64,000 nt of DNA from a virus: positions 62,001 to 126,000 of IMG/VR virus record IMGVR_UViG_3300042924_006566; one strand, written 5' to 3'. This document shows positions 56,336 through 61,818 of the stretch, piece after piece. Below the pieces are notes generated by a model that searched no databases, was not told where the DNA came from, and saw nothing but the letters and a program-made list of their open reading frames with translations. The stretch's first letter is position 1; every line of letters begins with the position of its first letter. The translations under genes were made by a program, and so were the position numbers.

Positions 56336-56575
56336 TTACTCAATGATAGCAATAATACTATCAATTGAAATTTTATAATTTTCTTTATCGATTTGAAGTG
56401 CTTTATTCCAATCCAACAGTACCTTGTCTGAAATCGACACATCAACAACATCAGGTCCAATATTCACTACGACACCATAATCGGCTTCATCACTTCTTTG
56501 CAAAATAATACCTGAACCTGTTGTCAGATTTTTTTCTGCACGTTTCACAATAACATTATTACCTAGTGGTTTCAT
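56336..56575 (-). CDS. GroES-like co-chaperonin (T4 gp31 analogue)
   Basis: 79 residues. MKPLGNNVIVKRAEKN, then the mobile-loop-like TTGSGIILQ, then YGVVVNIGPDV and DKVLLDWNKAL follow the GroES/Cpn10 order. Likely caps host GroEL to fold phage proteins such as the major capsid protein. Embedded in the tRNA array. Confidence 0.88.
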   Translation of the reverse strand: MKPLGNNVIVKRAEKNLTTGSGIILQRSDEADYGVVVNIGPDVVDVSISDKVLLDWNKALQIDKENYKISIDSIIAIIE

Positions 56576-60068: not shown

Positions 60069-60209
60069 TCACTCCATCAAAACATAATCCTGTTTTGAAA
60101 CGCCGCATTCTGGACAATTAACTTCGTCAGGCAAACTCAACCAATCAGATTCAGACAATGTGTGGCCACAAACAATACAAACATAGATTCTTTCTTTTTG
60201 TTCAGACAT
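60069..60209 (-). CDS. rubredoxin, 46 aa
   Basis: ATG at 60209 overlaps the rubrerythrin TAA. YVCIVCGHTLSE (CxxCG) and NCPECGVSKQDY (CPxCG) are the two iron-binding knuckles of rubredoxin. Short but complete. Likely electron donor to the rubrerythrin encoded just upstream. Confidence 0.85.
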   Translation of the reverse strand: MSEQKERIYVCIVCGHTLSESDWLSLPDEVNCPECGVSKQDYVLME

Positions 60210-60658
60210 TATAGACCTCCTAGTACATTTTTGTAAGCATTGGCGTGTCTTTCTTCCACTTTCTTGAGTGCTGCAAAACGCTTTTCCGCCAATTCTAAAA
60301 TTTCAATGAATTCTTTGGCGTGACGGCGCGATTCGAATAATTGTTCTTTTGCTTCTTCGGCACTTTTTAGATCACCCTCAGCAACCGCTTCAGCATGAAA
60401 CTTAGGATACATCTCCGTAAATTCGTATGTTTCACCTTCAATTGCTTTTTCAAGACATTCTTTCGTAGAAGGTTTACCAATCAACAACTCCAGATGACCC
60501 CAAGCGTGTTTAATTTCTTGATCTGCTGTATGTTCAAAATGTTTTGCAACATCTTCGAATCCTTCTTCACGAGCAATCTTTGCAAAATAACGATATTTGA
60601 TATGTGCCATTGACTCTCCAGCCAATGCACTTTCTAGGTTTTTAATCGTGAGTGACAT
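60209..60658 (-). CDS. rubrerythrin (ferritin-like domain only)
   Basis: 149 residues: NLESALAGESMAHIKYRYFA, DQEIKHAWGHL (ExxH), then EFTEMYPKFHAEA and a late ESRRHAKEF make the di-iron four-helix bundle. The usual C-terminal rubredoxin domain is missing and encoded as the next gene. Reduces hydrogen peroxide. Confidence 0.92.
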   Translation of the reverse strand: MSLTIKNLESALAGESMAHIKYRYFAKIAREEGFEDVAKHFEHTADQEIKHAWGHLELLIGKPSTKECLEKAIEGETYEFTEMYPKFHAEAVAEGDLKSAEEAKEQLFESRRHAKEFIEILELAEKRFAALKKVEERHANAYKNVLGGL

Positions 60659-61233: not shown

Positions 61234-61677
61234 TTATTTTTCTTCTTTGGAAACCAAAGGAATCTTTTTCACTAGGTCTTGTGCCTTAATCATATTCTGC
61301 AACCAAATCTTCAACATACCGTTAGCCAATTCTGCATTTTCAATTTCAATCTTGTCATTGATTTTGAATTCACGGGAAAAATTACGATTTGCAATACCTT
61401 TGAAAATGAAATTGTCGTCGGTTTCATTTTCTTGAGTATTACCCTTAACGATAAGTTTATTACCTTCCAAAGTAATTTCAATATCAGACTTGCTAAAACC
61501 AGCAACAGCCATTTCGATAACATACTTGTTTTCTTTGACTTGTTTGATATTGTATGGAGGATAACTAACTGCCTTTAGATTCTTGGACATTTCTTGTAGG
61601 TCCTTGAAAACATCATTGAATCCGACAGCAAAAGGATCAAACTTGTGAAAATCGAAAAGATTATGAATAGAGGTCAT
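61234..61677 (-). CDS. small heat-shock protein Hsp20
   Basis: 147 residues, alpha-crystallin domain from about residue 42: YPPYNIKQV, KYVIEMAVAGFSKSDIEITL, GNKLIVKG, FKGIANRNFSREF, ANGMLKIWL. Holdase chaperone. The C-terminal I-x-I-type tail is atypical (KKIPLVSKEE). Preceded by a structured leader at 61678-61788. Confidence 0.93.
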   Translation of the reverse strand: MTSIHNLFDFHKFDPFAVGFNDVFKDLQEMSKNLKAVSYPPYNIKQVKENKYVIEMAVAGFSKSDIEITLEGNKLIVKGNTQENETDDNFIFKGIANRNFSREFKINDKIEIENAELANGMLKIWLQNMIKAQDLVKKIPLVSKEEK

Positions 61678-61683
61678 TTAAAT

Positions 61684-61788
61684 CTCCTTAAATAAGCGAG
61701 TTAATAATGCCAACCCAAAAGGCGTTGGCCCGAGGAATTTATATGCAGCCTGACCTCGGACTGCTGCTCCCATCCCGATGGGACTAGG
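61684..61788 (-). promoter_or_regulatory. ROSE-like RNA thermometer leader of hsp20
   Basis: The roughly 105-nt leader folds into successive hairpins: CCCAT/ATGGG (61782-61769), CCGAGG/CCTCGG (61759-61730) and GCCAAC/GTTGGC (61729-61709). The last, CTCGCTT-ATTT-AAGGAG (61700-61684), pairs the Shine-Dalgarno AAGGAG with CTC-CTT, leaving a bulged G. That is the ROSE layout (UYGCU anti-SD with bulged G) known from bacterial small heat-shock genes. ATG is at 61677. Confidence 0.75.
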
Positions 61789-61818
61789 ATTATATAAGTA
61801 TTTATATTAATTTGTCAA
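61789..61818 (-). promoter_or_regulatory. hsp20 promoter(s)
   Basis: Minus strand TTGACA (61818-61813), 18-bp spacer, TATAAT (61794-61789). A T4-type late box TATAAATA (61806-61799) lies inside the spacer. Confidence 0.75.

Follow-up and report, generated by a model that had tools for sequence, protein, structure and literature searches.

A predicted ROSE-type RNA thermometer precedes hsp20 in a T4-like phage and in related aquatic phages

The hsp20 locus and its leader

The DNA stretch analysed here (the window, 64,000 nucleotides) lies inside a 156,624-base virus record and comes from a T4-like phage, as its markers gp44, gp62, regA, dCMP deaminase, rubrerythrin, Cpn10 and 19 tRNAs indicate. 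Small heat-shock protein genes (hsp20) are frequent in T4-like cyanophages, and the region 61,678-61,818 of the window carries the leader of such a gene (Table 1). An earlier note on this DNA had described a leader of about 105 nt starting from a consensus promoter, a description that both the promoter and the start codon bear out. The spacer of this promoter also contains the TATAAATA box, and both early and late expression of hsp20 would be possible. A TAAATA motif was also noticed about 10 nt 5' of hairpin A in cyanophage leaders. The terminator-like hairpin found 3' of hsp20 makes it probable that the gene forms its own transcription unit. Further stress-protein genes of the same phage, encoding a Cpn10-like co-chaperonin and rubrerythrin, are located at window positions 56336-56575 and 60209-60658.

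Table 1. Features of the hsp20 locus in the window
Feature	Coordinates	Strand	Basis or remark
regA	62222-61815	-	directly upstream of the hsp20 promoter
Consensus sigma-70-type promoter, TTGACA-18-TATAAT	61818-61789	-	12/12 consensus positions
TATAAATA box, T4-late-promoter-like, in the spacer of the sigma-70-type promoter	61799-61806	-	sequence; also in relatives
Leader, about 105 nt	between promoter and hsp20 ATG at 61677	-	read from sequence
5'-terminal hairpin, UCCCAU-CGGG-AUGGGA	61783-61768	-	sequence; near-identical in many relatives
Probable H-type pseudoknot	61767-61730	-	S1 61767-61763/61749-61745; S2 61759-61754/61735-61730
Complete two-hairpin ROSE element (predicted)	61729-61682	-	matches of models R1 and R2; ROSE_3 24.6 bits
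Hairpin A, GCCAAC-G-CC UUUU GG-GUUGGC	61729-61709	-	matches of R1 and R2; covariation
Hairpin B (putative thermosensor), CUC-G-CUU AUUU AAGGAG	61700-61684	-	sequence; covariance model matches of R1 and R2
Shine-Dalgarno AAGGAG, wholly within hairpin B	61689-61684	-	sequence
hsp20, IbpA-type small heat-shock protein, 147 aa	61677-61234	-	Pfam HSP20 3e-17
Terminator-like hairpin, 3' of hsp20	61205-61182	-	

The earlier note had proposed that the last hairpin of the leader hides the ribosome site AAGGAG by pairing it with CTCGCTT around one bulged G. This is what we read from the sequence: hairpin B has six pairs, leaves the G at 61697 bulged and holds the entire AAGGAG in paired form. Hairpin A possesses a conserved bulged G of its own at 61723. 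Of the "chain of hairpins" that had been described, the hairpins are indeed present, but part of the upstream segment is better described as a probable H-type pseudoknot. The complementarity of this pseudoknot survives changes on both sides in the relatives L009, L389 and L390, which are few variants; among the window and these three leaders, its second stem takes the forms CCGAGG/CCUCGG, GGAGGU/ACCUUC, CGGUGG/CCACUG and GGUGGU/ACCAUC. Five freshwater leaders (L031, L005, L033, L014 and L012) carry other structured modules in place of the window pseudoknot. Among these modules are a pseudoknot of a second kind, which combines CUACC..GGUAG and CCUGUG/CACAGG, and hairpins whose loops (ACCUUA/UAAGGU) are complementary; a search of these upstream modules against Rfam gave no match.

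Identification, conservation and linkage of the element

At gathering cut-offs, the Rfam families detected in the window were tRNAs only, and the same was true of 20 relatives. When 191 bases at the leader were searched at a relaxed cut-off, ROSE_3 (24.6 bits, E 0.0023) and ROSE_2 (22.7 bits, E 0.0071) were the top two of 4227 families, albeit both under their curated cut-offs, the gathering cut-off of ROSE_3 (RF02523) being 43 bits. Marine bacterial ibpA leaders also remain under the ROSE_3 cut-off, at 26-35 bits. Over the whole virus record ROSE_3 reached E 4.4e-4 at the hsp20 leader and 0.41 at the next-best place, and it was the best Rfam family for the leaders of Syn2 (E 0.0033) and L066 (E 3.7e-6). 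No ROSE match appeared at E<1 in 34 kb of cyanophage loci because of the search size, a 91-nt query giving ROSE_3 at E 0.0033.

Two independent covariance models were trained with the window left out, R1 on 18 cyanophage leaders only and R2 on eight leaders of bacterial ibpA homologues only (SAR86, PS1 and other marine proteobacteria), these being homologues by sequence and not experimentally proven thermometers. Since MAFFT misplaces the Shine-Dalgarno sequence (SD) when loop lengths differ, the training sets were limited to equal loops. With a short calibration that makes the E-values rough, the hsp20 leader was the sole match in the 64-kb window both for R1 (29.4 bits, E 1.3e-5) and for R2 (46.0 bits, E 1.7e-9), and the only place found by R1 in the full 156-kb record. 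On 62 held-out loci (293 kb), R1 gave 60 matches, 59 of them heading hsp20 units, and the first other match had an E-value of 5.3. With R2, 46 of the 47 phage hsp20 loci scored ahead of the first false match. R1 also recognised ibpA leaders of marine bacteria, with E-values as low as 1e-7, and gave weak matches to E. coli ibpA and ibpB.

We searched for relatives of the locus by tblastn and collected 80 close hsp20 loci from viral contigs in addition to cyanophage loci; an hsp20 match was present in 502 named phage records. Upstream sequences vary widely among these loci, whereas the last 50-60 nt before hsp20 share one design, stem-Y-G-CC-NNNN-GG-G-stem followed by CUYGCUU-N-AAGGAG. The element was found in cyanophages of many genera, in the pelagiphages HTVC008M, Mosig and HTVC103P (a 54-kb phage), in the Methylophilales phage Melnitz-2 and in the Pseudomonas jumbo phage PA5oct. 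The Syn2 leader alone had matches in 316 named cyanophage records, located at or adjoining hsp20 among the matches listed. Both the anti-SD/SD element and the bulged-G parse of hairpin B fit all of the 114 distinct phage hsp20 leaders checked. By sequence, the element is thus widespread across cyanophages and predicted in hundreds of aquatic phages. A group of loci at first taken to be without it (L005-L008, L010 and L047) was reclassified, as this lineage has the element about 240 nt upstream, in front of a small ORF that has been inserted (checked in L005 and L006). Two annotated hsp20 starts look wrong: that of L181 (P-HM1), at 257, is a GTG inside hairpin A, and for that of L175 (S-CAM3), at 473, the true start lies upstream, after the ROSE element. 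The unverified record of Pseudomonas phage Y7 (L169) contains a typical Pseudomonas ibpA with ROSE_3 (69 bits), which is probably host DNA in the record and not a phage gene.

Compensatory changes, which the earlier note had suggested looking for in relatives, were found in both hairpins. In an alignment of 66 distinct phage leaders to R1, a procedure that favours the figures since the alignment is fitted to the structure, 98.6% of pair cells were standard pairs (less than 70% paired in slid controls) and double-sided changes occupied 84 cells as compared to 25.7 +- 3.4 in shuffles, a value reached in none of 500 shuffles. Four of the six modelled pairs of hairpin A vary on both sides among relatives. 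Hairpin B, because it contains the SD, is mostly invariant and its covariation rests on the closing pair, which was C-G in 108, G-C in 2, A-U in 1, U-G in 3 and unpaired in none of the 114 distinct leaders (0/5000 shuffles reached this result). The G-C pair occurs in two related phages, Sf-CH1b and ACG-2014e, whose SD is AAGGAC, and the A-U pair in HTVC103P, whose SD is AAAGGAU.

The linkage to hsp20 was examined independently of any protein by running the DNA pattern GCCTTCGGGG-N12-36-TCGCTT-N2-7-AGGAG over 2.9 million viral contigs. At least 120 stretches were found and, among the 120 listed, 119 begin hsp20 units: hsp20 is directly next in 104, four precede an hsp20-like ORF start cut by the contig end and eleven precede a small conserved ORF of about 70 aa, while one looks like chance. 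In the ten complete listed cases of this small ORF, as well as in L006, hsp20 follows immediately, so that insertion of a gene in front of hsp20 leaves the element in its leading position in the unit. In viruses, linkage of the predicted element to hsp20 is therefore near-exclusive. The small ORF itself (L006:3765-3989, also in L201, L202, L220, L252 and others) matched no Pfam family.

In view of these observations, a fortuitous match within AT-rich DNA close to a strong SD has a negligible probability. Individual AGGAG/CTCGCT pairings are admittedly short, the Rfam scores are sub-threshold and the folding energy of the leader is ordinary (z -0.95, so that energy alone would not have revealed the element). 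Against this, the leader is the sole match in 64 kb with both models and in 156 kb, it covaries and it is conserved over hundreds of phages; the held-out model searches refute a chance origin. The traits of ROSE elements are present together: a match to a covariance model of known-type members (R2, 46 bits), a U(U/C)GCU anti-SD paired with the SD (UCGCU/AAGGAG at 61700-61684), a bulged G opposite the SD that is also part of R1 and R2, two to four leader hairpins (A, B and the 5' hairpin) and a small heat-shock gene. We conclude on sequence grounds that the leader is a two-hairpin ROSE-type element of the bacterial ibpA kind, and not Rfam ROSE_3 proper because the curated cut-off was missed. 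The ROSE-like identity claimed earlier is upheld by the anti-SD, the bulged G, the two hairpins, hsp20, the bacterial ibpA model and the compensatory changes; the outcome that the earlier note had named as fatal, neither a covariance match nor compensatory changes, did not occur.

Predicted temperature response and alternative modes of control

The closest known counterparts are the two-hairpin ROSE elements of Pseudomonas ibpA, which are experimentally proven thermometers (PMC3669281). There, temperature is sensed by the second hairpin only, the GC-rich first one being insensitive to it (PMC3669281). The window and Pseudomonas ibpA (ROSE_3, RF02523; PMC3669281) have in common a short leader, two hairpins, a stable first hairpin, an IbpA-type gene and a second hairpin in which U(U/C)GCU pairs with the SD around a bulged G; the first hairpin of P. 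aeruginosa even has the same UGCC..GGG bulged-G tip. Unlike the Pseudomonas elements, that of the window is phage-borne, has a shorter and weaker hairpin B, a consensus sigma-70-type promoter and an Rfam score under the curated cut-off, and in its lineage is preceded by an extra hairpin and a pseudoknot. E. coli ibpA and ibpB (ROSE_2, RF01832) share the CUCGCU/AGGAG core identically (CUCGCU...AGGAG and CUCGCUU...AAGGAG, respectively) and the IbpA-type gene, but in E. coli ibpA the leader is longer, with multiple hairpins, and the sensor hairpin is more stable. Marine bacterial ibpA leaders (SAR11, SAR86, PS1 and Woeseiaceae; L308-L387) have the same two-hairpin architecture, with an anti-SD that is mostly UUGCU instead of the UCGCU of the window. 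The phage genes lambda cIII and SPbeta blyA (fourU) are likewise under RNA temperature control, but their structures and genes differ from those of the window and they are not ROSE elements.

Since the window shares the Pseudomonas ibpA architecture, we infer that hairpin B melts on warming, and it is very likely that this two-hairpin ibpA-type element permits Hsp20 synthesis through melting of its SD hairpin. At low temperature the weak bulged-G helix CUC-G-CUU/AAG-GAG of hairpin B would keep the SD closed, hairpin A upstream serving as a stable support for folding and mRNA stability. Upon warming the short hairpin B would open and free the SD, ribosomes would load and the IbpA-type Hsp20 would be made. 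Temperature control of the phage gene, including melting in the cell and its temperature range, is thus proposed by homology. Nearest-neighbour parameters give hairpin B -5.1 kcal/mol at 10 C, -3.2 at 25 C and -1.7 at 37 C, as compared to -4.1 kcal/mol for the E. coli ibpA core at 37 C, and this weaker predicted helix points to opening in a cooler range, which would suit aquatic hosts. ViennaRNA folding between 5 and 60 C gave no sharp melting for the window leader, but it also mispredicted the proven E. coli ibpA thermometer; energy folding is for this reason uninformative on melting and the temperature curves were discarded as evidence. The program favours a competing window hairpin, AUUUAA-GGAGA-UUUAAAU, which has GGAG in its loop; L009 and other relatives show no clear counterpart of it. 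This competing structure would likewise hinder initiation, since the start codon would be paired.

It is improbable that the hairpin is only a constitutive brake or a protection of the SD, devoid of sensing, against RegB-like cleavage at GGAG or RegA repression. The gene regA is located directly upstream in the window and in several relatives, and predicted SD occlusion exceeds that of other genes (median unpaired 0.13 in hsp20 leaders versus 0.40 in other genes at 30 C). Many element-bearing phages nevertheless have no adjacent regA, and a brake leaves unexplained the conserved bulged G, the UYGCU motif, the bacterial ibpA identity and the exclusive IbpA-type link.

Possible, though we do not favour it, is that the leader RNA acts chiefly as a target of Hsp20, whose free oligomers would bind it and thereby block translation. 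Proteins of phage or host that misfold would then titrate Hsp20 away and open synthesis, making the leader an aggregation sensor with temperature as one of several triggers; such binding can coexist with thermosensing. E. coli IbpA binds the ROSE-bearing ibpA 5' UTR and represses its own translation, for which R93 and an aromatic residue at position 34 are needed (PMC10474464). Of 107 phage Hsp20 proteins, 106 keep R93 and all have an aromatic residue at position 34; IbpB, in which position 93 is Q, does not repress itself. Conservation of R93 may however be structural, and position 98, where E. coli IbpA needs the charge of K98, is cationic in just 2 of the 107 phage proteins. The statement of the earlier note that the phage could time chaperone synthesis "without any protein" may accordingly be too strong given the self-repression of E. 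coli IbpA (PMC10474464) and the key arginine kept in phage proteins, and Hsp20 autoregulation alongside temperature is, by analogy, a live possibility. A dual sensor, in which the ROSE hairpin would be read by both temperature and Hsp20 so that output tracks the misfolded load, with interchangeable upstream pseudoknots adding a further layer, is a speculative extension that we regard as rather unlikely. Under the favoured reading of a hairpin that melts on warming, synthesis of the chaperone by phages is probably coupled to heat or to stress on protein folding.

Bacterial origin and significance

The best NCBIfam models for the Hsp20 proteins of the window, Syn2, HTVC008M and PA5oct are IbpA and IbpB, below the equivalog cut-offs (112 bits against IbpA for the window protein, the cut-off being 212). 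The anti-SD/SD motif precedes the gene in 77 of 80 bacterial IbpA relatives, and nearly all distinct relatives having this motif form the bulged-G hairpin. A scan of bacterial genomes with the single leader sequence found no relative of it, but an alignment-based scan did recover relatives. In a tree of phage and bacterial Hsp20 proteins the phages cluster, a topology that fits one or several acquisitions. In a published protein phylogeny, the small heat-shock proteins of cyanophages fall with bacterial class A and not with those of the cyanobacterial hosts (PMC3827213). Proteobacterial ibpA is the probable source from which phages obtained the chaperone gene together with the element, and, as far as sequence comparison indicates, the two have been kept as a unit since. 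This suggests that a chaperone gene and its RNA switch moved jointly from proteobacteria to viruses of cyanobacteria, in agreement with the published phylogeny (PMC3827213).

ROSE elements have been said to belong without exception to small heat-shock genes of bacteria (PMC4166951), and only a few RNA thermometers, of whatever type, have been reported from phages (PMC11182007). Our literature search, whose coverage of subscription papers and preprints was thin, found no report of a ROSE element at a phage hsp20, in line with the earlier remark that no well-described phage example exists, and two published papers on cyanophage small heat-shock proteins do not mention a thermometer. The mechanism is already known, whereas its occurrence in phages at such a scale appears to be new. 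A conserved ROSE family is now placed in hundreds of phages, where a regulator of proven type provides a testable hypothesis for the timing of phage chaperone synthesis. Under this hypothesis, the outcome of infection in lakes and oceans would be linked to temperature or folding stress.
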